A model generated the notes under the pieces. The model made no database searches and was not told the DNA's origin. It saw only the letters and a program-made list of their open reading frames with translations. A program made the translations under genes and the position numbers. Of a stretch of DNA of 21,721 bases, positions 2,318 to 20,552 are shown one piece after another (within the stretch, counting starts at the first letter, position 1; the number at the start of each line of letters is the position of its first letter). Origin of the DNA: a virus; the IMG/VR virus record IMGVR_UViG_3300042691_045931, positions 1 to 21,721 of that record, one strand, 5' to 3'.

Positions 2318-2370
2318 AGGGGCCTCGGGTCCCTTTTTCCTCGTAGTGAACCTTATCTCTAAGGAGGAGA
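2318..2370 (+). promoter_or_regulatory. Module B: terminator, box and Shine-Dalgarno
   Basis: Stem aggggcc (2318-2324) pairs with ggtccct (2328-2334), followed by T-run 2334-2338, box cctcgtagtga (2339-2349) and AAGGAGGAG (2361-2369) before the ATG at 2373. The GTG inside the box (2346) opens the same frame, but it lies upstream of the SD and is not the start. Confidence 0.6.
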
Positions 2371-2372
2371 TT

Positions 2373-2696
2373 ATGCTTTACGTTTTGAACTCTTTTCCCA
2401 ATTCTTTGTACCCCACCACACCAGGTGGGGTTATAACCAGCACTTGTATTTCAGAGGAAGAGGCCCGCGCTCTCCTCTCCATTACTGACTGGACAAGTGC
2501 TATAGGGCACCTCTCTACGGCGGAGCTACTCTCCGCCCGTCTCGGAGTAACCGTACCCGTGAATCGGGTACAGGTGCCCCCAGGGGCCGAGTATATTGTA
2601 TGTTTATTTGTCAGCCCTCGGCGGTTGGCAGAAGGAGAACGATGGACGGAGGAGGATATACTCCAGTTCGACATCAACTACATCCTTGTTAAGTAG
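2373..2696 (+). CDS. acrIII-1: AcrIII-1 family viral ring nuclease (DUF1874), anti-CRISPR
   Basis: The 107-residue protein matches the DUF1874 / AcrIII-1 family (SIRV1 gp29, STIV B116) along its length. It begins MLYVLNSF, like the family's first strand. It has AIGHLSTAELLSARLGV, with H46 aligning to catalytic H47 of SIRV1 gp29, then VNRVQV. The segment RRLAEGE places R84 and E87 opposite R85 and E88. The protein ends with a beta-strand as in the family. Family members cut cyclic tetra-adenylate (cA4), the second messenger made by type III CRISPR effectors, and so stop Csx1/Can-type ancillary nucleases. Some cellular relatives (Crn2) are fused to or sit beside CRISPR genes, but no cas gene is nearby here, which favours a viral or plasmid anti-CRISPR. 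The start at 2373 is fixed by AAGGAGGAG. The gene has its own terminator and box, so it is expressed alone. Confidence 0.9.
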   Translation: MLYVLNSFPNSLYPTTPGGVITSTCISEEEARALLSITDWTSAIGHLSTAELLSARLGVTVPVNRVQVPPGAEYIVCLFVSPRRLAEGERWTEEDILQFDINYILVK

Positions 2697-2920: not shown

Positions 2921-2971
2921 AAGGGGCCTCGTAGCCCCTTTTCTTTTAGTGATCTTTATACCCAAGGAGGG
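2921..2971 (+). promoter_or_regulatory. Module D: terminator, box and Shine-Dalgarno
   Basis: Stem aaggggc (2921-2927) pairs with gcccctt (2934-2940). Then come the box cttttagtgat (2943-2953), a TTTATAC segment and AAGGAGGG (2964-2971), before the ATG at 2976. Confidence 0.6.
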
Positions 2972-2975
2972 TATT

Positions 2976-3110
2976 ATGAATACTAAACTATCAATTGTTA
3001 TTGCTGTCAGTGCCGTTTTACTAACATGCTCTGCCATCATTGGTGGAGTATACGTAGGCATTTGTCACAGTAACTACCCCGTGACGGCGTGCGAGGTAGA
3101 CAAAGAGTAG
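2976..3110 (+). CDS. Small cysteine-containing membrane protein, 44 aa (paralogue 1)
   Basis: The protein has a hydrophobic helix (residues about 5-28) that includes LLTCSAIIGGVY, then a short tail with two more cysteines (C30, C39) and an acidic end, VDKE. The LLTC stretch resembles a lipobox, but Thr at -1 is not canonical. The next gene is a clear paralogue sharing the C-x-AIIGGVY core, the two tail cysteines and the VDK end. That fits a short loop closed by a disulfide outside the membrane. AAGGAGGG precedes the ATG. Confidence 0.75.
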   Translation: MNTKLSIVIAVSAVLLTCSAIIGGVYVGICHSNYPVTACEVDKE

Positions 3111-3115
3111 TAGTT

Positions 3116-3170
3116 AAGGGGCCTGCCCAGGCCCCTTTTTCCTTCTAGTGATCTATAACCCTAGGAGGGA
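3116..3170 (+). promoter_or_regulatory. Module E: terminator, box and Shine-Dalgarno
   Basis: Stem aaggggcct (3116-3124) pairs with aggcccctt (3129-3137), then T-run, box ccttctagtga (3141-3151), TCTATAACCC and AGGAGGGA (3163-3170), before the ATG at 3173. This copy is close to the consensus. Confidence 0.6.
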
Positions 3171-3172
3171 TT

Positions 3173-3304
3173 ATGAAATACACATTATCTTACATAGCAG
3201 CTATTGCGGTAATTCTTGGCACATGCGGTGCCATCATTGGTGGAGTATACCATGAGGCCTGTTATGGGCCTCTACCTACCTCACTATGTAAGGTAGACAA
3301 ATAG
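3173..3304 (+). CDS. Small cysteine-containing membrane protein, 43 aa (paralogue 2)
   Basis: This is a paralogue of the gene just upstream. Both have a hydrophobic helix with GTCGAIIGGVY (TCSAIIGGVY in paralogue 1), two cysteines in the tail (C30, C39) at identical positions, and a VDK terminus. Sequence between those anchors has diverged (HEACYGPLPTSLC), while the second halves of their terminators are almost the same. The arrangement points to duplication of a whole module plus gene followed by divergence of the tail, which would be the exposed part. AGGAGGG sets the start. Function is unknown. Confidence 0.75.
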   Translation: MKYTLSYIAAIAVILGTCGAIIGGVYHEACYGPLPTSLCKVDK

Positions 3305-3312
3305 TAGTAGTT

Positions 3313-3365
3313 AAGGGGCCTGGGCAGGCCCCTTTTTCCTTCTAGTAGTTTATAATCCTAGGAGT
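3313..3365 (+). promoter_or_regulatory. Module F: terminator, box and Shine-Dalgarno
   Basis: Stem aaggggcct (3313-3321) pairs with aggcccctt (3326-3334), followed by T-run, box ccttctagtag (3338-3348), a TATAAT hexamer (3352-3357) and AGGAG (3360-3364). The TATAAT match suggests this copy could also serve a host sigma-70-type polymerase as a -10 element. Confidence 0.6.
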
Positions 3366-3370
3366 ACATC

Positions 3371-3886
3371 ATGAATGGTCTACAAATGGAGAAAGTAGTG
3401 TTGCGTGTGATTGAAGAATTAGGTTTTAAATGTCCCAAGCCCCGTGAGGTATGGGGGGAGGGTTACTTGTATAACGCCGCCCATGAGCTCGCGAATAAGC
3501 ATCTAGAGCTCAACTCCCGAGGCGGTGTCCTTCGTCGTCTCGTCCCCACTGATGATTGGGGAGTCCTAGACCGGGTATACAAGGTGGACGTAATAGTCTG
3601 CCAGTATACTGGGGAATTATGGGCTCTTCAGCTTACTACCGATGCCGAGGCGGTATATAAGAAGCTGGGCCAGCTTTATAGTACCGATAGTCTTCGTCTG
3701 GCTGTTGGCATCGCCAAGACCTGCTTGGTGGAGATTAAACCCCCTCAGCCTACCTGGGAGGGGCTCGGCCTGACTAGCCGGGTGGACCGAGATCATCTCG
3801 AGGAGTGCCTCTATGAGATGTTTGAGACAATAGAGAAGAGTGACAAGCTCTTTCACTACCAGCTAGATCTAAGCTGGTTAAAGTAA
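3371..3886 (+). CDS. Soluble protein, possible PD-(D/E)XK-like fold
   Basis: The gene encodes 171 residues with no membrane segment, starting at the ATG after AGGAG. A helix containing E39 is followed by a predicted strand pair with D73 (YKVDVIV) and ALQLTTD (Q87, T89). This order (helical acidic residue, D on a strand, then Q-x-T on the next strand) resembles atypical PD-(D/E)XK nucleases that have Q in place of E. The canonical lysine is absent, so it may be inactive, be a different fold, or use another residue. The rest is helical with a conserved-looking W-rich middle. It is the last gene of the tight series 2373-3886. Downstream lies a structured region rather than a simple terminator. 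The nuclease idea is inference only. Confidence 0.75.
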   Translation: MNGLQMEKVVLRVIEELGFKCPKPREVWGEGYLYNAAHELANKHLELNSRGGVLRRLVPTDDWGVLDRVYKVDVIVCQYTGELWALQLTTDAEAVYKKLGQLYSTDSLRLAVGIAKTCLVEIKPPQPTWEGLGLTSRVDRDHLEECLYEMFETIEKSDKLFHYQLDLSWLK

Positions 3887-4040: not shown

Positions 4041-4089
4041 GGAGGGCCCACTCCCCTTTTCTTTCTAGTGAATATTTACTCTAGGAGGT
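4041..4089 (+). promoter_or_regulatory. Module G: weak terminator, box and Shine-Dalgarno
   Basis: A weak stem (ggag 4041-4044 with ctcc 4051-4054) and cccctttt are followed by the box ctttctagtga (4061-4071) and CTAGGAGG (4081-4088), before the ATG at 4096. This is the poorest hairpin of the set. Confidence 0.5.
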
Positions 4090-4095
4090 AAATCC

Positions 4096-4245
4096 ATGTC
4101 CCCTTATCACACTTATCTTCAATTAAATCATCAAACGATTCAACTCCGGTCCGTAGATGGGCCAGCATGTCATCTAGACCTGGATGGTCACCGCTGGTAT
4201 GTTCTACCAGATGGTGACTTCGAGGTCATCACTCTAATAGACTAA
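4096..4245 (+). CDS. Small soluble protein, 49 aa, unknown
   Basis: A 49-residue protein begins MSPYHTYLQLNHQTIQLRS and continues with a compact pattern of short beta-strands and turns (HLDLDGHRWYV, PDGDFEVITLID). AGGAGG lies 8 bases before the ATG. A second, N-terminally deleted copy lies about 1 kb downstream (5080-5198), with mainly synonymous or conservative differences. This shows that the reading frame was once under selection in both copies. No family recognised. Confidence 0.7.
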   Translation: MSPYHTYLQLNHQTIQLRSVDGPACHLDLDGHRWYVLPDGDFEVITLID

Positions 4246-4251
4246 CACTAT

Positions 4252-4304
4252 GGGGAGTATATAGCTCCCCTTTTTCCTTCTGGTGAATTTTAGTCCCAGG
4301 AGGA
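4252..4304 (+). promoter_or_regulatory. Module H: terminator, box and Shine-Dalgarno (duplicate of module A)
   Basis: Stem ggggag (4252-4257) pairs with ctcccc (4265-4270), followed by T-run, box ccttctggtga (4276-4286) and AGGAGGA (4298-4304). The stretch 4267-4306 matches module A (176-215) base for base, although the genes they serve are unrelated. Confidence 0.65.
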
Positions 4305-4307
4305 CAC

Positions 4308-5066
4308 ATGTATAAAATCCTAGCAGCGTCAATCTACGCCGCATTACAGGCAGCGGGCGTCTACGTCCACCCAACGACGTGGGCGTTCATCTCGTACTAT
4401 TTCATGGGAGGTTCCCAGCCCCCGACTCTATCTGAAGCCGACATCGCTGAGACACGCGATGCGGTAATACGAAACCTCAAGGCTCGTCTTAAGGACGAAG
4501 GGGTAAGCCGCCGCTCTCTAGTTACTTTCGTGGACATAAATATAGAAAACGGTTGGTGGTCTTCTTTAAAGGGGGCCATCGGTAACTTCAACTACCGCAT
4601 TTTGGCGGTAGGTCCCGACACGATTAAGGTGGAGTGTCGTGACACGTGGAACTTCAATCCCAACTCTTATTTCCTAAAGCTACCCTGTTCGCCTCGTCTA
4701 GCGAGTGCAATATCTTCTCTGGCCAAGAAGGTAGGTATAGAGGTCTTCTACGAGAAAAATAAAAGAGAGCTAATTATCTGTGAAAAGGATCTGGTCAAGC
4801 TCAATCCTGGTCGTGCCTTCACGACCGTGTGGGAAGTAGAGGTACCCACAACGGAGGTAGTTCCTGAGTGGGCTACTTACTGGGAGGTGGCTACCTGGAA
4901 TGAGGGTAACTATGCCTTCATTCGGCCTCTTAAGTACGTGCCATTACCCCTCTGCCGCTACCAGCGGGGTAAAGGAGTTTATGTTGGACGGGACTACCAT
5001 CCCGACATCGATTACGTGTCGATGTTAGAAGCAGGTTGGGCTCCCGCTGTAGATTTACCTGAATAA
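4308..5066 (+). CDS. Unknown protein, 252 aa
   Basis: The start is the ATG 4 bases after AGGAGG. Residues 1-35 are hydrophobic and small-residue rich (AASIYAALQAAGVYV), which may be one membrane segment or a buried helix. An alpha/beta body follows, with SRRSLVTFVDINIENGWW, GNFNYRILAVGPDTIKV and a notable RDTWNFNPNSYF turn (near residues 110-122). The C-terminal half is rich in Trp and Tyr. No catalytic motif is convincing. The DTWNFNP element looks like a conserved family signature, but I cannot place it. As a stand-alone cassette with a duplicated module it belongs to the same island as the AcrIII-1 gene, so a counter-defence role is a guess from context. Confidence 0.8.
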   Translation: MYKILAASIYAALQAAGVYVHPTTWAFISYYFMGGSQPPTLSEADIAETRDAVIRNLKARLKDEGVSRRSLVTFVDINIENGWWSSLKGAIGNFNYRILAVGPDTIKVECRDTWNFNPNSYFLKLPCSPRLASAISSLAKKVGIEVFYEKNKRELIICEKDLVKLNPGRAFTTVWEVEVPTTEVVPEWATYWEVATWNEGNYAFIRPLKYVPLPLCRYQRGKGVYVGRDYHPDIDYVSMLEAGWAPAVDLPE

Positions 5067-5320: not shown

Positions 5321-5358
5321 TTGGCCCCTTTTCTTTTAGTAGTCCTATACACCCAAGT
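5321..5358 (+). promoter_or_regulatory. Module I: box without Shine-Dalgarno
   Basis: ggccccttttcttttagtag (from 5323) continues into CCTATACACCC. The box is clear, but the hairpin is only a 4-bp gcca/tggc stem and AGGAGG is absent. It serves the SD-less gene starting at 5366. Confidence 0.5.
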
Positions 5359-5365
5359 ATACACA

Positions 5366-6106
5366 ATGAGAAACAACAACAACGACAACCAGGCCTCTAA
5401 TCAAGCCTCTAACCAACCCACCAACTCCAAAAACTACGTATTTACCCTTAACGTAAGTCGCTCTGCCAGCACTAAGCCTGGCGTTGTTACTTACGTGCAC
5501 AATGGCGCTATCAAGCGCCGCCTGGATGGGTCTAGCTACTGGCTGGAGTTCCGGCTGATATCCAGTAAAAACGGAGAGGTACCTCTCACTACCTCCGATG
5601 GCCGTAGCTTATCTACAGCCGAGTTTGTAAAGCTTCTCTCCGGAGACGCCAGCGATGACGTGATAATGTCTGTAGAGTTATCTACAGATTTTGAAGACGG
5701 GTGGGACAGCTCGTGGGGGTGTGTAAAAGTTAGCTTCAGCGCGGAAGACCTCCGCGTTGGACGCGAAACGGAATACAAGGGCACAATAACCCAGTACTTT
5801 CACCTTGAAGGTGCGGAAATCCAACTTCATCGGGAAGTTGTCCGTCCGAAAATAGACCCGTCTATACTAGACGGGTTTGAGGGAACGGCAAAATCTAACG
5901 TGGTAACTACGGAACAGTTACATAGTAAAGCGGCCGCCCGCAAACGCAAACGGGAGGCTGCTAAGGCTGCACGAGATACTGCAGCAATAGTATCTAAGCC
6001 AGGTACTGTTGCTAAGTCAGTAGTAGCATCTGATGATACTGCTACTGATTGGGAAGTGCCGGCTGACCTATCAGTCGACATCGACATCAACGATCTACTT
6101 GACTAA
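5366..6106 (+). CDS. Unknown protein with Asn/Gln-rich start and acidic tail, 246 aa
   Basis: The ATG at 5366 is preferred over an upstream TTG at 5321, because that TTG would lie inside the terminator/box. The protein has a disordered Asn/Gln/Ser segment (residues 1-21), a beta-rich body (about 22-160), a very basic helix (SKAAARKRKREAAKAAR, 187-203), and a low-complexity tail ending DIDINDLLD. A beta domain followed by a flexible linker and an acidic tip is a layout also seen in single-stranded DNA-binding proteins, but no OB-fold signature is certain. There is no SD, like the next gene and the one at 11767. It lies directly before the polymerase gene, and both carry the box, so they may be co-regulated and cooperate. 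Confidence 0.8.
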   Translation: MRNNNNDNQASNQASNQPTNSKNYVFTLNVSRSASTKPGVVTYVHNGAIKRRLDGSSYWLEFRLISSKNGEVPLTTSDGRSLSTAEFVKLLSGDASDDVIMSVELSTDFEDGWDSSWGCVKVSFSAEDLRVGRETEYKGTITQYFHLEGAEIQLHREVVRPKIDPSILDGFEGTAKSNVVTTEQLHSKAAARKRKREAAKAARDTAAIVSKPGTVAKSVVASDDTATDWEVPADLSVDIDINDLLD

Positions 6107-6110
6107 TAAA

Positions 6111-6163
6111 AAGGGGCCCAAGCAGGGCCCCTTTTTCCTTTAGTGGCCCTATATTACCACTAA
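6111..6163 (+). promoter_or_regulatory. Module J: terminator and box upstream of the polymerase gene, no Shine-Dalgarno
   Basis: Stem aaggggccc (6111-6119) pairs with gggcccctt (6125-6133), followed by T-run and the box cctttagtggc (6137-6147), then CCTATATTACC. No AGGAGG lies before the ATG at 6166. If the box is the promoter read by the polymerase encoded downstream, this site would make its expression self-reinforcing. Confidence 0.6.
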
Positions 6164-6165
6164 CC

Positions 6166-9100
6166 ATGAGTACCATCAACTCTATCGTCTTTCAATCCAA
6201 TATTCTCGTAGCCTCTATCAGCGTCGCTATCATCGCAGGTGCTCCTACTACACGACGTGTAGGCCCTGGTCGCCGCGCTCAGCAGATAGCGAGCCGTCGC
6301 GCTAATCGCGTAGTACGCCGTCGCTCTCGTCGTATAGCGTCAGCCGGCCGCCCCATCCGCTCTCTACCTCAAAGTCAACGTCCCTGCGTTGTAAAATCAG
6401 CACGACGTGCGCTACGTCGTGCCGCAGCTGCCGCAGCTTCAGCCGCCCGCAAACCCGTATTACGTAACCGTAACGTCGTAGACAAACTTGTCTTACGACA
6501 ACGTAAGGCCAAACCTATACTGCGCGCTGTCAGCGCAGTATTTGCGCGTCCCTCGCGTTCTATTAGCACCGGCGCTAAAGCCGTTGCTACCGTAAATAAT
6601 GCTGCTGATAGTATTATCGCTGCCCTCGACCAAGGCCGCGTAAACTACCGCGGCAACGGCCGCACGTGTGTAGGCAAGAAGTACAAAACTAAAAACGCTA
6701 AAGCCGTTTTAGCGATAACTAAAGCTGCTAAAGCTACTGATAAAGCAGCACGCGTTAAACGCTGTATGAGCGTTGTAGTACCAGAATTACCAAGTGATGT
6801 ACTGGCTTGCCGCATGAGAATCGTAGGCAAACTATGCGGTGTGACCTTTGTACAAGGGGACATAGCGTCTTATTGTGACAATGTCGTTACTGTACCTTCA
6901 TTCGAAGATATATACGCGATAACTCACGAGCTTGTCCACCACTGCCAAGCTCTAGGTCTTACTGAAGACCTAGATATAGCTCTGGTGTCTGAGGCCGCTA
7001 TTGGCGCGGGCTCGGCTCAATGGCATGACACTAAATCTTACTACGAAGGTACTGAACACGAGAACGACGAATACGAAGCAGCTCTGCTTATGTACGACCC
7101 GGCATTAGTGGCCCGCCTCTTATGCACTCACTACCTCATGACCGCGTTTGTAGAAAGCGGGGCACCTGGTCCTGATGATATATGGATGGATGTAGTAGAT
7201 AGTTTAGATCCTGCGATTTGTCGTGAAGTCGTAGGTCTCGATGATCGCGTACTCGATTATAAAACCTATGGCGAATATGCTGAAGCCGTTGGATATGATG
7301 ACACTAATACGTTATTAGACTGGGAATTTGTCTTTAACAATAGTGTCAACAACGATAATGCTGTTGCGCTAACCATTCAAGCAATTGATGGTCTTATTGG
7401 TGCGGCGCCCGCAGCAGTAACTCCTACCCACCCGCTCTCTAACATAGGAGCCCCTACTAAGGGGTTAGAGAGTGATAGCTCCTCTAACAATACCACCAAC
7501 ACTAGCACTACCATGAAGAGCATTATCGAGATGTTAATTCCTGACCCTAGTACTCTCGGTGGAGTCGTGTCTCCTAAGCAGGAGGCGCGCATCACAGCAG
7601 CTCGTAAAGAGTTAACCCGCTTGTTTGGGGCTAATAACTTCGACCTTCTGCCTGAAGGTCCGATTCTCTATGTCGTATCTGGTTACAACCGTATGTGTAA
7701 GAAGTTCCTTGCGCTTCTAGACCATCGGGTTGTTTACACCACGGATTCTAAAATGAATCCTAAGGTCATTAACTTAGGTGTAACTAAGTCTATTCCCTAT
7801 GAAGACGACAAGCATACCTATACTACTAAGACCGAATGCTTAGTTAGCATGTATAGTGAGCACTTCCTCACTAAGTTAGCCACGTGGTCTGGTGACGATT
7901 TAGCCGCTCTTGTAGGCTGTCTATGTGTCAAGCAGCATCGTACTGTTAGTGTTGAGGGCCCCTGTGTGGTTATCAAAGGTAATAACCGCAGCACTACTTT
8001 CAACTTTAGTACAGGTAGCGTCAATGATGGTCGTCAGAGTCGCATCGCTAATGAACTCGTTAAAGTCGGAGGCAAAGACTACAGTGGTCGTGTAGCCCTT
8101 GTGGCGCTCTGTATGAAGGTAGCGTATAACGCCACTGGTGCGCGTGCTATCCTCAATGAGGTAACTAACCTGTGGCGCGAGGACATCAACTACGGCGCTC
8201 AGCCTAAAGAGGGTCAATCTCTATTTGAGATTAATCGCTGTATGTCCCGTCCTGTAGCGTTCAAGCCTTGGGATAAGGCCTTCCCCTTCCTGCAAGTGGA
8301 GAACGTTGGCCTCGCACCCAGCGATCTTGAATTGTCGCTCAAAGCCAATGTCATAGCAGCACCTGATAAATACAATGCAAAATGGATCGCTGTAGGTAAG
8401 GGTGCCAAGGCCATGTTCCTCGGACTTAAGGATAGTAAGATATACTCCATCCATGATTTTAGCAAGCCCACTAAGGTGTACAACCGTCCGCCTAGCTCGG
8501 GTAAATACACTCGTGCTGAGATTATAGATCGTCGTGATAGTCTACTTCGCGTTGATTTAGGTGATGGTAACTATAGTTGTGGTGGTGGCCTCTATCTACG
8601 CACCGCATTCACCAATAGCCGCTTTGGCTTTGGCAGTGGTGTTGCTGCTATACGCCGCGACCTTGAGTTCGAATACACCGTACCGAAGACCATTACTAAG
8701 GAGTTTCACGTACTCCGTATTCCTAGCTCAGTTCGCGCTCTTATGGCTGCTGATCTAGATGACCCCACGAGTAAACTCATGGAAGTCATCGAAGGCAAGA
8801 TAGAGAAAGCGAAGGGCCAGGTTTATGCTCCTGGTAACTCTATCATTAGCATTATGCAGGGCAAGTACTGCATAGTGAAGAACGAGACATTCGCGCAGGA
8901 CATCCGCGTAATAGGCGGGACTGTCACGCGTAATGGCGTCGAGGGCCGCGCTGATAGCGTCACTATTCGACTTGAGACCGAGATGGTGGGGCGCGACCAA
9001 GCCCTCAAACTCCGCGGTCTAGGTAAGAAGCTTACCACTCTTCCCTATGACGTTGAGGGACTATCTCAACCCTGGGATATCATCCTAAATAACGAGACCA

Positions 9101-11262
9101 CCAAGGGATGGCCCGCGCTCATAGAGATGTTCGCCATTGAGAAGGGGGGCTGCACCTATACTCCCGAAGGTGCGCTTCTCACCATCGATGATACTGGTGA
9201 AGTTATTGATCTTATGACTAAGAGTAATACCTTTACTGAGTGGGCTCAAGCCAAACTGGCTACTGATGATACTGGAGCCAGTGTTAAAGAGGTCATCTCC
9301 TTTGATATGGCCCGCGACCTGTGGGATTCCATCTCCTCCGTAGTAACTAACGATGACATCAAGGTAATCGACATCGACGATACCAGCGTCCGTATCGAAG
9401 AAACAGTAGAGGTTATATACGGCTATCTGCCATACGATATCGAGATAGCCACTCCTCGTGAGTCCGTAGCATTCTCCAAAATGACTATGGAGCAGATAGG
9501 TATTGTGGCTCTACAGAACCGCGGTTGGGGCGAAGCGCTCATGGAGGAGGTTAAATACGATAACGTCATGTCCATAGTTAGTATGATCACATCTAAGGAA
9601 TGTGATGCTTGTATTAACATCAGCACTACTGAGGGGCGTGACCATCTACGGGACATTATCGGCGTAGTTAACAACTATGTTTCTGATAGCACCCCTGGCA
9701 GTGACCGCAATCTGCTAGATCGTTTTGCTACCGTCTACCCCGATGGAGTGGATATCGTTGCTCAGAATAACGGTAATGAAGTCTCTCTTCATATCAATGG
9801 TAAGGCCCTAAGCGCGTTCGGTACCTTCTCTGGCGCCTCCGCTACTGGTATTATGCTAGACCTCTTGACACTGTTGGCCTACGTTACTGATGTAGGAATT
9901 GAAGACCAAAGCGGTTTGGATAGTAAAATCTACTCCATGACCGCTAAGGTCAGCCGCGGTTTACGCACATGGTGTAACACCATGGTTAAATCCAAAGGCA
10001 TTATGAAGAGTATGGCCCGCGCTGGCGATGTGGTCGTTGGTAAGGTCAAGACCAGCTATAGCCCCTTGCTCCATAGCGCTGATGGCGTGCCTGTAATTCT
10101 CATGCACCCCAATTGCCCTATGGTACGTATGCTTGGCATCGAAGAAGGTCAGGTTATTGGGATACAACGGACTCCTATGGGCTTCGTCCTATGCGGCCGC
10201 GTTAAGTTATCTACTACCGATGCCTTCGTCGCACACTACACAGTCAACCCTCTCCTATGGCACGCCGTTAACGAAGGCGATGCTGATGGTGACCAGTGCG
10301 GCGGCATTAATGCTCACAAATACGGTATCGACGCTGAGAGTGCCCTCACTATCAATGCTAGTCTCATGGGCATAGGCGGCTACTTCTACTGCTACGAAGC
10401 AGATGACCTGCCGTTCTTCGCCTTCATGAGCTATGAAGATAAGATAGGCAAGAAATCCCTCACTAAGTGGGATAAGCCTGTAGCTACTGCTATCGCTGTC
10501 GATAAGTACGTCAGCGACGCTGCTGAGGTGCACACGCATTATAAAGTAGCCGTAGGTGTTGGCTATGGTATCTGTTCTGCACTTGCCTTCCAAACCTGGG
10601 ATAGTATGTACCGTGCTAGCGGCGTCGATACCGACGCACTTAAAGCGTGTGTTATCGCCTGGCGTTTCGTCTATGAAAGCATGGGTCTCGGGGGCTATAC
10701 CCCTGAGGCTAAGATCTTCATGGCTACTTTAGTGCAAGCAGCCCGCGCCTGGGCTGCTGGCGTACCTATGTATAAGTCGTCGCAGGACGGGTTATACTAC
10801 TCTGCCAATTCCACTAAGCTTTTGGATACGGATCGCCAAGGAGGTGGTGTACCTCCTGCTCGGGCTATGGCTGACCTTATGCCCGCTAAGCTGGCTAAGG
10901 AGCCCGCGGTAATCTACCAGCTTATAAAGGCCCGCGCCCGTACTCTCACATACGGTGCTCTCGAACGGGGCAACTTCGCTCGCGAGAGCCTTATCATGTC
11001 ATCTGCCATATACGGAGCCTTCCGTCGTACTGGCCAGGGCCATGATCCTGTGGTTCCTATGACCCAGGATGACGCAGCCAGTTATGGCGCTGATGATATC
11101 GTCCCCGTTAGTGTGTTCGACATGGTAAGTGAGTTCCAACTCTCTAACTATGTCAGGAACCCTCAACTTAAGCAGCTGTTGGAAATCGCAACTGTTGTAC
11201 ATCTCGACCTCGGCGACTATAAACTAGAACTCGCTGAAGCTGAAGATCATCCTGATTTCTAA
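6166..11262 (+). CDS. Zincin metallopeptidase fused to a single-chain two-barrel RNA polymerase, 1698 aa
   Basis: The order of domains is as follows. Residues 10-27 are hydrophobic, and about 28-140 are Arg/Ala-rich and disordered. A zincin domain has HELVHH (H254, E255, H258) and a probable third ligand in EHENDEYEA (297-305). A Ser/Thr/Asn-rich linker (about 420-450) ends at an internal Met450. The polymerase follows. Near residues 943-975, KLRGLGKKL (K948, R950, K954, K955) and DIILN (from D971) match the beta-subunit barrel (HGNKG and DIVLNP in bacterial RNAP). At about 1330-1380, VIGIQRTPM, VNPLLW and NEGDADGDQ match the beta-prime barrel; D1372, D1374 and D1376 would bind the catalytic magnesium. 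The single chain recalls YonO-type and crAss-like phage polymerases. The peptidase is not part of those as I know them. It may cleave the precursor at the linker or act on a host protein. No SD precedes the ATG at 6166. Confidence 0.85.
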   Translation: MSTINSIVFQSNILVASISVAIIAGAPTTRRVGPGRRAQQIASRRANRVVRRRSRRIASAGRPIRSLPQSQRPCVVKSARRALRRAAAAAASAARKPVLRNRNVVDKLVLRQRKAKPILRAVSAVFARPSRSISTGAKAVATVNNAADSIIAALDQGRVNYRGNGRTCVGKKYKTKNAKAVLAITKAAKATDKAARVKRCMSVVVPELPSDVLACRMRIVGKLCGVTFVQGDIASYCDNVVTVPSFEDIYAITHELVHHCQALGLTEDLDIALVSEAAIGAGSAQWHDTKSYYEGTEHENDEYEAALLMYDPALVARLLCTHYLMTAFVESGAPGPDDIWMDVVDSLDPAICREVVGLDDRVLDYKTYGEYAEAVGYDDTNTLLDWEFVFNNSVNNDNAVALTIQAIDGLIGAAPAAVTPTHPLSNIGAPTKGLESDSSSNNTTNTSTTMKSIIEMLIPDPSTLGGVVSPKQEARITAARKELTRLFGANNFDLLPEGPILYVVSGYNRMCKKFLALLDHRVVYTTDSKMNPKVINLGVTKSIPYEDDKHTYTTKTECLVSMYSEHFLTKLATWSGDDLAALVGCLCVKQHRTVSVEGPCVVIKGNNRSTTFNFSTGSVNDGRQSRIANELVKVGGKDYSGRVALVALCMKVAYNATGARAILNEVTNLWREDINYGAQPKEGQSLFEINRCMSRPVAFKPWDKAFPFLQVENVGLAPSDLELSLKANVIAAPDKYNAKWIAVGKGAKAMFLGLKDSKIYSIHDFSKPTKVYNRPPSSGKYTRAEIIDRRDSLLRVDLGDGNYSCGGGLYLRTAFTNSRFGFGSGVAAIRRDLEFEYTVPKTITKEFHVLRIPSSVRALMAADLDDPTSKLMEVIEGKIEKAKGQVYAPGNSIISIMQGKYCIVKNETFAQDIRVIGGTVTRNGVEGRADSVTIRLETEMVGRDQALKLRGLGKKLTTLPYDVEGLSQPWDIILNNETTKGWPALIEMFAIEKGGCTYTPEGALLTIDDTGEVIDLMTKSNTFTEWAQAKLATDDTGASVKEVISFDMARDLWDSISSVVTNDDIKVIDIDDTSVRIEETVEVIYGYLPYDIEIATPRESVAFSKMTMEQIGIVALQNRGWGEALMEEVKYDNVMSIVSMITSKECDACINISTTEGRDHLRDIIGVVNNYVSDSTPGSDRNLLDRFATVYPDGVDIVAQNNGNEVSLHINGKALSAFGTFSGASATGIMLDLLTLLAYVTDVGIEDQSGLDSKIYSMTAKVSRGLRTWCNTMVKSKGIMKSMARAGDVVVGKVKTSYSPLLHSADGVPVILMHPNCPMVRMLGIEEGQVIGIQRTPMGFVLCGRVKLSTTDAFVAHYTVNPLLWHAVNEGDADGDQCGGINAHKYGIDAESALTINASLMGIGGYFYCYEADDLPFFAFMSYEDKIGKKSLTKWDKPVATAIAVDKYVSDAAEVHTHYKVAVGVGYGICSALAFQTWDSMYRASGVDTDALKACVIAWRFVYESMGLGGYTPEAKIFMATLVQAARAWAAGVPMYKSSQDGLYYSANSTKLLDTDRQGGGVPPARAMADLMPAKLAKEPAVIYQLIKARARTLTYGALERGNFARESLIMSSAIYGAFRRTGQGHDPVVPMTQDDAASYGADDIVPVSVFDMVSEFQLSNYVRNPQLKQLLEIATVVHLDLGDYKLELAEAEDHPDF

Positions 11263-11287: not shown

Positions 11288-11320
11288 GGGGCCACCTGGC
11301 CCCTTTTTCTTTTAGTGGAG
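11288..11320 (+). promoter_or_regulatory. Module K: terminator and box after the polymerase gene
   Basis: Stem ggggcca (11288-11294) pairs with tggcccc (11297-11303), followed by T-run and the box cttttagtgga (11309-11319). The next start codon is about 450 bases away, so transcription from this box would first cross the repeat region 11350-11730, giving a noncoding RNA or a long leader. Confidence 0.6.
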
Positions 11321-11766: not shown

Positions 11767-12465
11767 ATGAGAACAACACAACGCACCGCCAAAACCACCG
11801 CAGGAACCACCGCCAAAACCACTACTACTCTATCCCCTATAGAAGCATTCAAAGCAGCGGTAGCAGAACCTAAACCACAGGAATCCAAAGCGCAACTGCT
11901 TTTCTCAATAGCGTTTACAACTAAGTTCCTTCCAGAACGCTTTTGGAACAAAGAATGCTCCGACGGAACCGTCCGGCTAGTAGGCACAGTCACGCGGACT
12001 AACAATATTACCCGCCAGGGTTTCCCAATTGCTAACGACCAGCTTGTTGATATGACAGTTGAAGTCCGGGTAACACCGGACCAATTTGAGATTATCTCTG
12101 ATGGCGCTGAAGGCATGGTAGGAGCGGGCTTATCCGTTCTCTTCGAGGTCGGGGAGCCCATCTTATCCGAACTCACCGTAAACGGTGAGGAAGTCAATAG
12201 CATTGTCTTTTACGCTATGGCCTTGGTAGGCATGGAGGTCAATCATACTTCCATTAGCGGCCGAGGCTTTGATTCAAAGAATGAGATGGATAACTGGTTC
12301 TCAAAGGCGCGGTCTCAGAATAATGCTCGGCAGAAGCGCCGGCAAGTAGAGCGCACTGCTCGGCTACAAGCAACACAAGCTGCACAAGCTGTTGTCGCTG
12401 CTGCAAATAACGATGCAGAGTGGGCGGCGACGACCCCTGCCGCAAGCACCAATCCTATGGACTAG
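11767..12465 (+). CDS. Unknown protein with Thr/Lys-rich start and basic C-terminal helix, 232 aa
   Basis: The protein begins with a disordered Thr/Ala/Lys segment (residues 1-24). A folded, beta-rich middle (about 42-160) has the stretches VRLVGTVTR, LVDMTVEVRV and LTVNGEEV. A basic helix (about 176-200, QKRRQVERTARL) and an Ala/Gln-rich tail ending TNPMD follow. The general plan (disordered start, beta domain, basic helix, flexible tail) matches the protein at 5366, but I see no residue-level homology. No SD precedes the ATG (GCTAGCCATGAG), as with 5366 and 6166. Its location after the polymerase and after module K suggests the same functional set. It could be a nucleic acid-binding partner, but this is inference. 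Confidence 0.8.
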   Translation: MRTTQRTAKTTAGTTAKTTTTLSPIEAFKAAVAEPKPQESKAQLLFSIAFTTKFLPERFWNKECSDGTVRLVGTVTRTNNITRQGFPIANDQLVDMTVEVRVTPDQFEIISDGAEGMVGAGLSVLFEVGEPILSELTVNGEEVNSIVFYAMALVGMEVNHTSISGRGFDSKNEMDNWFSKARSQNNARQKRRQVERTARLQATQAAQAVVAAANNDAEWAATTPAASTNPMD

Positions 12466-12470
12466 TAATT

Positions 12471-12554
12471 AGCCGACCTTATCGGAGGTCGGCTGATATA
12501 CGCCTCTCTATTAATAGAGAGGCGTATATATCGTTCTACTACAGAGAGAAGGAA
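12471..12554 (+). promoter_or_regulatory. Leader with hairpin and 34-bp perfect palindrome
   Basis: Stem agccgacct (12471-12479) pairs with aggtcggct (12486-12494), followed at once by a perfect 34-bp palindrome (12496-12529, centre TTAA). Then come a shared CTACTACAGAGAGAA stretch and the purine-rich GAGAGAAGGA before the ATG. The same arrangement, with a different palindrome, precedes the gene at 13517. A bidirectional terminator or an operator is possible. Confidence 0.6.
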
Positions 12555-13415
12555 ATGAACGCTATACCACACACAATAATATCTAGACAGGGCGTCGAAC
12601 AGAATAGAAGACAGTTTAAAGAACAACCCTTCGGGGAAGATTTGGGCAATGGCATCACCTTAGAAATGGTTGCCATCCCGGGGGGAACTTTCCTGATGGG
12701 TTCATCGCCAAATGAGAAAGATAGTTACGATGATGAACGCCCTCAACATGAGGTTACTGTCTCCACCTTTTTCATGGGTAAATACCCCATCACCCAGGCT
12801 CAGTGGAAAGAGGTTGCCTCTCGCACAGATTTAAAAGTTAAACAAGACCTTAATCTCAACCCGGCCCATTTTAAAGACCGTCCCGATAGTGATCGCCGCC
12901 CCGTAGAACAAGTCAACTGGTACGATGCCGTTGAATTTTGTGCGAGATTATCGAAACTGACGGGAAGGGAATACCGACTACCGAGTGAAGCGGAATGGGA
13001 ATACGCTTGTCGTGCTGGAACCACCCCCCCATTTCACTTTGGGGAAACCATTACGGGGGAATTGGCTAACTACCGTGCCAGCTATACCTACGCTGGAGAA
13101 CCGAAGGGAGAATATCGAGAAGAAACGACTCCCGTGGGACAATTTCCCCCCAATGCCTTCGGACTGTGCGATATGCATGGCAATGTCTGGAAATGGTGCG
13201 CCGATACTTGGCATGATAATTATGATGGTGCGCCGACGGATGGCAGTGCTTGGATAGAAAATGAGGATGATAATCATTCTTCTCTGCGGGGCGGTTCCTG
13301 GGGCTTCAATCCTGATAGCTGCCGTTCCGCGATTCGCGGCAGCAGCAACCGCCGCGACGTCTGCGGCAACGATGGCGGTTTTCGGGTGGTCTGCGTATTC
13401 AGAAGAACTCCCTAA
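12555..13415 (+). CDS. FGE-sulfatase/C-lectin fold protein, probable DGR target, 286 aa
   Basis: After about 20 residues shared with the following gene (NAIPHTIISRQGVEQNRRQF), the protein is a typical cyanobacterial FGE-sulfatase domain. It has MVAIPGGTFLMG, DDERPQHEVTV, YRLPSEAEWEYACRAGT, FGLCDMHGNVWKW and the C-terminal LRGGSW (from L244) ... CRSAIR ... GFRVV. Enzymatic FGEs make formylglycine in sulfatases. In this lectin-like subgroup the fold instead displays a variable ligand surface, diversified by a DGR reverse transcriptase. The codons at the exposed positions (13302-13376) almost all end in C or T, as expected if they derive from AAC/AAT in a template repeat. No reverse transcriptase or template repeat is in this window. 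The ATG at 12555 follows GAGAGAAGGA. Its codon use differs from the flanking genes, which suggests capture from a host. Confidence 0.85.
   Translation: MNAIPHTIISRQGVEQNRRQFKEQPFGEDLGNGITLEMVAIPGGTFLMGSSPNEKDSYDDERPQHEVTVSTFFMGKYPITQAQWKEVASRTDLKVKQDLNLNPAHFKDRPDSDRRPVEQVNWYDAVEFCARLSKLTGREYRLPSEAEWEYACRAGTTPPFHFGETITGELANYRASYTYAGEPKGEYREETTPVGQFPPNAFGLCDMHGNVWKWCADTWHDNYDGAPTDGSAWIENEDDNHSSLRGGSWGFNPDSCRSAIRGSSNRRDVCGNDGGFRVVCVFRRTP
13287..13394 (+). other. Putative DGR variable repeat (VR)
   Basis: This covers the RGGSW-to-FRVVC segment of the preceding gene. Framework codons (CGG GGC GGT TCC TGG, TGC CGT TCC GCG, TTT CGG GTG GTC TGC) alternate with sites coding G, F, N, D, S, I, V and C, whose codons all have a pyrimidine third base (GGC, TTC, AAT, GAT, AGC, ATT, GTC, TGC). 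That is the pattern left by adenine-specific mutagenesis of AAY codons. The template repeat is not present here. Confidence 0.6.
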
Positions 13416-13917: not shown

Positions 13918-14196
13918 ATGCTGCCATTTAAAGAGTTTCGGAAGCAATCCTTCAGCCATCACCTTAGAAATAGTTGTCATACCGGGGGGATCCCCCTTGA
14001 TCGCGAGGGCGCTGATTCCCCTCGATTTTGGGATAAAGCTGATCGCTTGATGGTGGTGACGGTAGGAGGTGCAGCCCTAGGTGGATCAATTGCGGGAGTT
14101 TACGGTGCGGTTATTGGGCCACCGGTCCAGAGTATTGTCTGTATAAATTTAACCAAGACCGAGACAGAGGTTCTGGGTGCATTGGTTTTCGAATAG
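13918..14196 (+). CDS. Hypothetical 92-aa protein containing an out-of-frame FGE relic
   Basis: The frame begins MLPFKEFRKQSF, resembling the MLSFEEF start of the two genes downstream. Bases 13955-13990 match 12650-12686 of the FGE gene in about 32 of 36 positions, but the frame used here reads SHHLRNSCHTGG rather than ITLEMVAIPGG. Residues about 43-65 (MVVTVGGAALGGSIAGVYG) form a glycine-zipper-like hydrophobic helix. The gene therefore appears to be assembled from pieces. It may be expressed from the ATG at 13918 or from a later start just before the helix (TTG, about 14047). There is no strong SD. It may be a pseudogene remnant. Confidence 0.45.
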   Translation: MLPFKEFRKQSFSHHLRNSCHTGGIPLDREGADSPRFWDKADRLMVVTVGGAALGGSIAGVYGAVIGPPVQSIVCINLTKTETEVLGALVFE

Positions 14197-17612: not shown

Positions 17613-18134
17613 ATGAAACTCAAGATCAAATTAACTCGTAAAACATCAAACAAGCAGGTCACCTTTACCTTCACCGAAAAGGGCAACGCGGTGCTAACCG
17701 GCACCTGTGTGGGGGCCTCTGACTATCATTTGAAGCTAGCAAACGGTGGTTCTGTCGACGCTAGTGATCTAGCCGTCGGGCTAACTGTCAATGTAGTATT
17801 CTCTTCGCGCGATGCTCAGAGTGCAGTCGAGAGTATAGCCTCGGCCTATGAGGAATATGGAAACGGTAGCCCATTTATCACGATGGTGATTGAATGTAAG
17901 ACCAAGAAGCCTACGGCTGAAGGTAACCTCATAATCATGATGGCAGACATCACATCAGTTAATTATGAGGCGATGAATGATGATACCCTCGTGACCGAGG
18001 ATGAGTTAGATATGCTCTTCCAGAAGGGGGCAGGAACTAAGGGAGCAAGTGGAGCAGCGCGTGAAGCAAGTGTTCCTACTTCAGGTGCTCCCAACTGTTT
18101 CAACCGTAAGGTAACTCTCCAAGAGAGACACTAA
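17613..18134 (+). CDS. Unknown 173-aa protein, paralogue of the next gene
   Basis: The protein has a beta-rich N-terminal half (MKLKIKLTRKTSNKQVTFTF, GNAVLTGTCVGASDYHLKLA), a middle helix (SAVESIASAYEEYG) and PFITMVIECK. The end is acidic (DDTLVTEDELDMLFQKG) followed by a low-complexity tail of about 33 residues not shared by its neighbour (GTKGASGAAREASVPTSGAP and onward). GAGGTG lies 7 bases before the ATG. A hairpin (18178-18204) separates it from the paralogue at 18232. An OB-like or SH3-like beta fold is possible. No family recognised. Confidence 0.75.
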   Translation: MKLKIKLTRKTSNKQVTFTFTEKGNAVLTGTCVGASDYHLKLANGGSVDASDLAVGLTVNVVFSSRDAQSAVESIASAYEEYGNGSPFITMVIECKTKKPTAEGNLIIMMADITSVNYEAMNDDTLVTEDELDMLFQKGAGTKGASGAAREASVPTSGAPNCFNRKVTLQERH

Positions 18135-18231: not shown

Positions 18232-18666
18232 ATGAAACCAAGAATGAAACTAAGAATCAAATTAACCCGTTCGAGTGAAACCAAACAAGTTACATTTACG
18301 ACTAACCGCAGCGGCAACGCCGTATTAACTGGAACTTGCGTTGGAGCACAAGACTATTACTTGGAGTTAGCAGACGGCCGTTCTATTGATATCAGTGAGC
18401 TGGCCATTGGTATGATTGTCAACCTAGTGTTCCCGCATAGCAATTATATAGCCAAGAGCGTAGCTGATGGCTACAAGATGTATGGAAATGATAACCCATT
18501 CATCACGATGGTGATTGAATGTAAAATCAAAGAACCCACGGCTGAGGATAATATCATAATCATGGAGGACGACATTGACTCCGTTTATTATGAGGCCTGT
18601 AGTAGTGATGACACCCTCATTCACGAGGGAGATATAAATGTGCTCTTCCAAAAGGTGACCATGTAA
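18232..18666 (+). CDS. Unknown 144-aa protein, paralogue of the previous gene
   Basis: The protein aligns with the preceding one almost from end to end (MKLRIKLTR, QVTFTT, GNAVLTGTCVGAQDY, IGMIVNLVF, PFITMVIECKIKEPTAEDN, DDTL, LFQK). It has three extra N-terminal residues, a diverged helix near residues 69-82 and no low-complexity tail. The conserved cores TGTCVGA and FITMVIECK probably mark the structural framework. The upstream SD is weak (CAGGAC). Duplicated genes with differing tails suggest related partners or a two-subunit assembly. Function is unknown. Confidence 0.75.
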   Translation: MKPRMKLRIKLTRSSETKQVTFTTNRSGNAVLTGTCVGAQDYYLELADGRSIDISELAIGMIVNLVFPHSNYIAKSVADGYKMYGNDNPFITMVIECKIKEPTAEDNIIIMEDDIDSVYYEACSSDDTLIHEGDINVLFQKVTM

Positions 18667-20253: not shown

Positions 20254-20552
20254 TTTTCTTATCTCTGGGTCCCCCCTCCATCGGAGGCCGGGATCGAGAG
20301 ATAAGAAAATGCCCTACAGATGCATATCCCCCCTCCATCGGAGGCCGGGACGCCATCTATAGGGCATTTGATTATCCGTTGATCGCGGGTCCCCCCCTCC
20401 ATCGGAGGCCGGGGTCGCAATCTAGGGATAGGTTCAACCTACTGGCCAGATATTCAGTAGGTCTAGATCATGCTCACTGACCAGATATTCAGTGAGCACT
20501 AGCATATCTATATTATACATCGAAATTATCGTCGTGGCAATAATGCCGATGT
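20250..20552. ncRNA. Array of hairpins with conserved caps and variable stems
   Basis: Three hairpins share a 22-base cap (CCCCCCTCCATCGG start; 20271-20292, 20328-20349, 20392-20413) but have unrelated stems: 17 bp (20250-20266 with 20297-20313), 15 pairs plus a G-U (20307-20322 with 20354-20369), and a weaker third (20373-20387 with about 20416-20430). Two smaller hairpins share the loop CCAGATATT with different outer stems (20437-20462, 20471-20498). A nested stem follows (20517-20552). Stems that differ yet still pair imply selection for structure. Bases 20307-20313 can pair with either of two partners, so two folds exclude each other. No known RNA family is recognised. Confidence 0.6.

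Follow-up and report, generated by a model that had tools for sequence, protein, structure and literature searches.

A predicted single-chain, two-barrel RNA polymerase with an N-terminal zinc peptidase domain in Ma-LMM01-type phages of Microcystis

Results and Discussion

Identity and conservation of the gp064 orthologue

The 21.7-kb IMG/VR virus record analysed here, referred to in full as the window, is 86-91% identical in nucleotide sequence to Ma-LMM01, MaMV-DC and their relatives (Fukuivirus), model viruses of toxic, bloom-forming Microcystis that kill these cyanobacteria. It encodes a protein of 1,698 residues that, at a probability of roughly 70%, is a phage-specific, single-chain, two-barrel, DNA-dependent RNA polymerase (RNAP) that transcribes phage genes and carries an N-terminal basic/hydrophobic tail and a gluzincin-type peptidase (Table 1). 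The protein is the orthologue of Ma-LMM01 gp064 (BAF36155; 87% identical), annotated as "hypothetical" and assigned to PHROG 30979, function unknown; the literature searched contains no function for gp064 and no report that names it as an RNAP.

Each of the nine Ma-LMM01-type records in the phage collection has a homologue of the protein (87-88% amino acid identity), as do 17 IMG/VR loci (87-100%), and the frame is therefore not a chance ORF. The single frame proposed by the first-pass annotation is thus real, and the landmarks listed there are at the positions given: HELVH (254-258), EHENDEYEA (297-305), Met450, KLRGLGKKL (948-956), DIILN (971-975) and NEGDADGDQ (1369-1377), with D1372, D1374 and D1376 correctly numbered. 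The start is Arg-rich, as described, residues 1-140 being 19% Arg with a net charge of +32. All 14 full-length IMG/VR copies, from Microcystis phages, retain both HELVH and DxDGD. Purifying selection acts on every domain, with dN/dS values of 0.12-0.16 for residues 461-1698, 0.19 for the zincin and 0.42 for the basic N-terminus. Sequence searches of Pfam, NCBIfam and the PDB gave no match.

Table 1. Coordinates of the gp064 orthologue, its predicted parts and the associated elements (window positions unless another locus is named)
Feature	Position	Strand	Remarks
ORF, zincin plus single-chain two-barrel RNAP-like module	6166..11262	+	1,698 aa; ATG 6166, stop 11262
Terminator hairpin, T-run and CCTTTAGTG element	6101..6165	+	just ahead of start codon
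Hydrophobic stretch (~7-25), then Arg/Ala-rich basic tail (residues 1-140)	6166..6585	+	net +32
ASRRANR (42-48)	6289..6309	+	ASR[RK]ANR motif common to Microcoleus phage and G001 homologues
Zincin domain (~195-330)	6748..7155	+	alignment and low-confidence model
H254-E-L-V-H258, zinc-binding/catalytic motif	6925..6939	+	conservation
E302, predicted third zinc ligand	7069..7071	+	invariant in all eight aligned zincins
Ser/Thr/Asn-rich linker (426-460)	7441..7545	+	Met450 at 7513, not preceded by a Shine-Dalgarno
RNAP-like module (~461-1698)	7546..11259	+	BLASTP and family alignment
K948-L-R-G-L-G-K-K955, candidate second-barrel (beta-like) lysines	9007..9030	+	motif
Predicted beta-prime-like barrel (~1287-1400)	10024..10365	+	invariant K1293, R1335-T-P1337, W1365, N1369, GDxDGD
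N1369-E-G-D-A-D-G-D1376, predicted catalytic Mg-binding motif	10270..10293	+	invariance
Terminator and CTTTTAGTG element	11289..11317	+	just past gene; same kind as the upstream element
Repeated intergenic element, copies	176-222, 2292-2365, 2706-2763, 2923-2951, 3094-3178
Repeated intergenic element, further copies	3291-3375, 4052-4098, 4267-4313, 6101-6165, 11289-11317
NADAR insertion in the Microcoleus phage homologue	L020, residues ~2960-3110 of 3,410		before YEGLGLSGY block

The predicted polymerase module and its family

Sequence comparison places the C-terminal two thirds of the protein in an extensive family of phage proteins that carries no annotation. The homologue in the Microcoleus phage My-WqHQDG was found by tblastn, and scans of IMG/VR DNA with patterns for the motif context added G001/L057 (3,253 aa), L125, L127, L130, L131, L133, L134, L135 and a split version in G002. 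BLASTP with the gp064 orthologue or the Microcystis orthologues gave E-values of ~2e-82 for L127, 3e-57 to 4e-61 for L135, 4e-31 for L130 and 5e-21 for L125 (overall ~1e-82 to 1e-15, L134 included). A family profile search of phage records identified one gene per phage, except for one contig in which the gene is in two pieces; the same search misses the split G002 gene. The RNAP part gave no sequence match in Pfam, NCBIfam or the PDB, and searching GTDB genomes with the motif pattern returned mostly Ca-binding repeats, with no relative recognised.

An alignment of 12 divergent members, down to ~19% identity, has K1293, R1335, P1337, W1365, N1369, G1371, D1372, D1374, G1375 and D1376 invariant, together with Y1503, E1504 and a few others. 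Conservation of the DxDGD aspartates, the check proposed for the original annotation, thus extends to proteins only ~25% identical and to all 12 of these members. K-x-R-x-x-G-x-K is conserved in most of the 12, and the K948...K955 block is, by this motif, a candidate for the second barrel. Modelling of residues 501-1698 with AlphaFold2 (15 sequences) gave an unusable model (pLDDT 28), and the two facing double-psi barrels are a prediction.

In G002 the polymerase appears to be split over several ORFs (L056 6002-15637, - strand), with stand-alone zincins of 161 and 195 aa encoded upstream in the same direction. The G002 polymerase gene ends 56 residues past the motif and is followed by further ORFs, one of which resembles, by eye, the missing C-terminal part. 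The Microcoleus phage homologue (L020) has a NADAR domain (E 1.3e-20) inserted within the polymerase module. A 1,383-aa frame with RYP...IDNDGDCDGD in L120/L121 (phrog_8308, unknown) possibly represents a further family of two-barrel polymerases.

Relationship to proven RNA polymerases

The virion RNAP of Thermus phage P23-45, gp96, is known from a crystal structure and from its activity (PMC10770324). HHalign alignment of the gp064-family barrel profile with the gp96 family (P 7.7e-6, probability 84%, 79 columns) places R-x-P and DxDGD in register, with a score of 46.2 as compared with 17.4 or less for 40 column-shuffled targets. YonO also aligns in register (RxP..DxDGD), weakly, with P values of 0.064 for the whole profile and 0.31 for the barrel block, and HHalign detected no sequence similarity to gp66 of the crAss-like phage phi14:2. 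There was no Pfam polymerase match to indicate the T7-like fold of N4-like virion RNAPs, and the signature is of the two-barrel type.

DxDGD could, in principle, be a chance occurrence, the protein being structural or calcium-binding and unrelated to RNAPs. GDxDGD repeats of the thrombospondin/dockerin type make up most genome matches to the motif pattern, and unrelated proteins chosen as decoys for NxGDxDGDxC score 21-39 in HHalign on the motif, which must therefore not be over-read by itself. These decoys, however, align over only ~13-19 columns, as compared with 79-99 columns that include RxP for the P23-45 RNAP, a match that, on these alignments, differs in kind, and in the gp064 family the motif occurs once, in a globular context and accompanied by distant invariant residues. 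A chance resemblance is consequently highly improbable and, at the level of sequence, already largely refuted.

The module might instead be another member of the superfamily, a primase or PolD-like DNA polymerase, or an inactive scaffold. PolD has the same barrels and aspartates (PMC10770324, PMC4996933), and most Ma-LMM01 genes are preceded by host SigA-like promoters (PMC5780444). The phage, however, already has a primase (gp134) and a DNA polymerase I (gp178) (PMC5780444), the closest detectable relative of the module is a proven RNAP, and all catalytic residues are invariant with a dN/dS of 0.14, so that such a role is improbable. Homology to proven RNAPs covers one barrel, with the second predicted from its motif, and the gp064 module is very probably a member of the two-barrel RNAP superfamily.

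The zincin domain

Gluzincins have two His residues, a general-base Glu and a downstream Glu ligand. Eight zincin sequences were aligned: four Microcystis-phage alleles, G001, the Microcoleus phage and the two stand-alone G002 proteins. The only catalytic-type residues invariant across all eight are H254, E255, H258 and E302, E302 being the one invariant Glu downstream of HExxH. The zinc site is, as judged from this alignment, complete and of the gluzincin type, and HExxH and the third-ligand Glu persist in proteins ~25% identical, in line with the proposal under examination. A model of residues 218-326 (pLDDT 50-70) has the order helix-strand-strand-HExxH helix-helices expected of a zincin. 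Foldseek with this low-confidence model returned noise and no structural match; the zincin profile has only weak matches in the PDB, including a gluzincin-type aminopeptidase (E 1.5), and the zincins of the relatives have weak sequence matches to Tox-MPTase4, Peptidase_M78 and Peptidase_MA_2.

The zincin-polymerase fusion is maintained at ~25% identity in two further cyanophage lineages, the Microcoleus phage My-WqHQDG (3,410 aa) and G001 (3,253 aa), and G002 has its two zincin genes 2-5 kb upstream of the split polymerase gene. That zincin and polymerase are joined in three lineages and are neighbours in a fourth speaks for a functional connection between them. HExxH is absent from the remaining family members found, from both the proteins and their near neighbours, and the peptidase is therefore presumably not needed for polymerisation. 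The N-termini of L135, L130, L134 and L120 were evaluated as degenerate zincins and did not score above shuffles; the L125 N-terminus shows marginal similarity, located outside the active site.

The zincin is the fastest-changing part of the protein. Identity over residues 201-300 falls to 44-76% in the more divergent copies, as compared with 85-100% over most of the polymerase part, and synonymous divergence (dS) is ~1.07 for residues 201-330 versus 0.21-0.29 for the polymerase part. The region encoding residues 195-400 (window 6748-7365) is present as divergent alleles among otherwise near-identical phages, a pattern that means exchange of divergent module alleles or rapid diversification.

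The linker and the possible substrate of the peptidase

Cleavage of the linker by the zincin, freeing the polymerase, was one of two roles initially envisaged, with the internal Met450 remarked on as lying at this position. Met450 is present in the linker, but an internal start there is not supported, as there is no Shine-Dalgarno-like sequence ahead of it, and Met450, although conserved among Microcystis phages, is not alignable in the Microcoleus-type homologues.

Self-processing at residues 426-460, in which the polymerase, or else the basic tail, is released either before packaging or afterwards, would be consistent with the low-complexity sequence located exactly between the modules, with the occurrence of zincin and polymerase as separate proteins in G002 and with published proposals of autoprocessing by the zincins of polyvalent proteins (PMC5512222). 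A protease and its cis site would, however, be expected to change together; in Microcystis phages the linker stays conserved and the fastest change is in the zincin. The N4 virion RNAP is, moreover, packaged uncut (PMC5512222), and in Microcoleus-type proteins the distance from zincin to RNAP motif exceeds that here by several hundred residues, and no linker could be aligned. We regard self-processing as somewhat unlikely.

A target in trans, the other role initially envisaged, fits somewhat better with the rapidly changing zincin and the separate zincin genes of G002. In the preferred reading, the zincin would be an accessory, as suggested by the family members that lack HExxH, that cuts a protein substrate; given a fast zincin next to a frozen linker and polymerase, a variable host protein is, in our judgement, a somewhat likelier substrate than the protein's own linker.

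Comparison with known systems

The first-pass annotation knew of no single-chain RNAP with an attached zinc peptidase. The presence of a zincin and a single-chain RNAP signature in one chain stands, as read from the sequence, with the barrel folds predicted; the claim of no precedent does not. A zincin is nearly always attached to N4-like virion RNAPs (PMC5512222), and a two-barrel RNAP and a metallopeptidase domain share the tape-measure protein of P23-45 (PMC10770324). Such combinations are known, but not, in the literature searched, in the present pairing and order. P23-45 gp96 is a proven single-chain, two-barrel RNAP with a metallopeptidase domain in the same polypeptide, but it is a 5,002-aa tape-measure protein with the RNAP N-terminal (PMC10770324), whereas the gp064 orthologue has its zincin N-terminal and is not of tape-measure size. 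The likeness to gp96 is drawn from the RNAP barrel; the gp96 metallopeptidase is known as an annotation. The N4-like virion RNAP (gp50) likewise joins a phage RNAP and an HExxH zincin in a large multidomain protein, but its polymerase is a T7-like right hand of unrelated fold, with the zincin C-terminal to it (PMC5512222).

YonO of SPbeta and the QDE-1-like RNAPs (PMC5467207) resemble the design predicted for gp064, one chain and two barrels with RxP ahead of DxDGD, but YonO has 839 aa, no peptidase and only weak profile similarity (P 0.06-0.3). The phi14:2 gp66, a virion RNAP of 2,180 aa, represents the same concept of a giant single-chain phage RNAP, but differs in having no detectable similarity and, in the text consulted, no HExxH zincin. 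Polyvalent proteins similarly carry a zincin and other enzymatic domains in one chain (here RNAP, and NADAR in the Microcoleus homologue), and processing of the chain or attack on host proteins has been proposed for their zincins (PMC5512222). By analogy, the N-terminal tail with ASR[RK]ANR, the zincin and the Microcoleus NADAR domain resemble packaged polyvalent proteins.

Transcription and timing

The MaMV-DH01 genome has been described as lacking an RNA polymerase (PMC9927357). In Ma-LMM01, only SigA-like promoters were found, upstream of most genes, and Morimoto et al. concluded that transcription depends on host SigA throughout, leaving three expression classes with near-identical promoters unexplained (PMC5780444). 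The early class, gp054-gp063, lies directly downstream of gp064 and does not include it (PMC5780444). As this class ends at gp063, gp064 would more likely be delivered with the virion, or made mid-infection to serve middle or late genes, than be an early product; it would then transcribe a subset of phage genes. Against the proposed reading, the gp064 gene is located apart from the structural genes gp086-gp091.

An element consisting of a GC-rich terminator hairpin, a T-run and (C)TTYTAGTG, often followed by a Shine-Dalgarno sequence and start codon, is repeated between genes of the window. TTYTAGTG was considered as a genome-wide phage promoter for the gp064 RNAP and was rejected, as in Ma-LMM01 it is confined to the gp063-gp067 region.

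A second candidate polymerase and wider implications

Ma-LMM01 gp080 (BAF36171; L144:7700-18388, - strand; 3,562 aa) has a single NLGDFDGD site. It contains NPISFITSNLGDFDGDTFSA, and a 26%-identical homologue in the Microcoleus phage retains ITMNLGDFDGDPF; gp080 is, on this basis, a candidate second two-barrel polymerase. HHalign alone does not identify gp080 as an RNAP, since decoys picked for the motif reach equal scores. Of gp064 and gp080, one could be a virion and the other a non-virion polymerase, on the model of P23-45. More tentatively, and with the odds somewhat against it, Ma-LMM01-type phages may have two unseen two-barrel RNAPs, namely gp064, whose zinc protease would act on the host, and the giant gp080, with the packaged polymerase and protease (plus NADAR in the Microcoleus phage) forming one injected takeover enzyme.

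If so, the published picture of an infection run wholly by host SigA-RNAP is incomplete, and gene control, described in terms of no RNA polymerase (PMC9927357) or of host sigma-70 throughout (PMC5780444), may need rethinking. A phage polymerase would make the origin of the three expression classes directly testable. L120-L135, G001, G002 and the Microcoleus phage would add a large, unannotated branch to the two-barrel RNAPs, and the zincin fusion, convergent with that of the N4 polymerase, suggests that a protease joined to a polymerase that acts early may solve a problem common to phages.

Other features of the window and its relatives

Variable C-termini of FGE-sulfatase type are often targeted by diversity-generating retroelements. 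The window encodes an FGE-sulfatase domain protein (12420-13415, + strand; E 2.9e-62) with a variable-looking C-terminus, and there is a partial repeat at 13957-14001. A STIV B116-like protein, of a family named for an archaeal virus protein, is encoded at 2346-2696 (+ strand; Pfam PF08960, E 1.9e-12). Tandem duplicated genes at 17613-18134 and 18232-18666 (+ strand; phrog_28585) have a homologue in G002 (L056 350-925, E 4.8e-8), which supports kinship of the window phage and G002. Three CCCCCCTCCATCGGAGGCCGGG-type repeats, spaced 57-64 bp apart, are present at 20261-20417.

Upstream of the polymerase, G001 and the Microcoleus phage encode a conserved small protein (L055:4110-4763 and L020:2240-2896, both + strand) with an HNDLHNGNI motif that suggests a kinase. 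Several neighbouring G002 ORFs (L056 4696-12294, - strand) have similar acidic-hydrophobic ends (SDLDNM, FDLDNL, AFDNM, FDPDDM), and the window ORF at 5321-6106 ends in the comparable DINDLLD; these tails are possibly a shared docking peptide.
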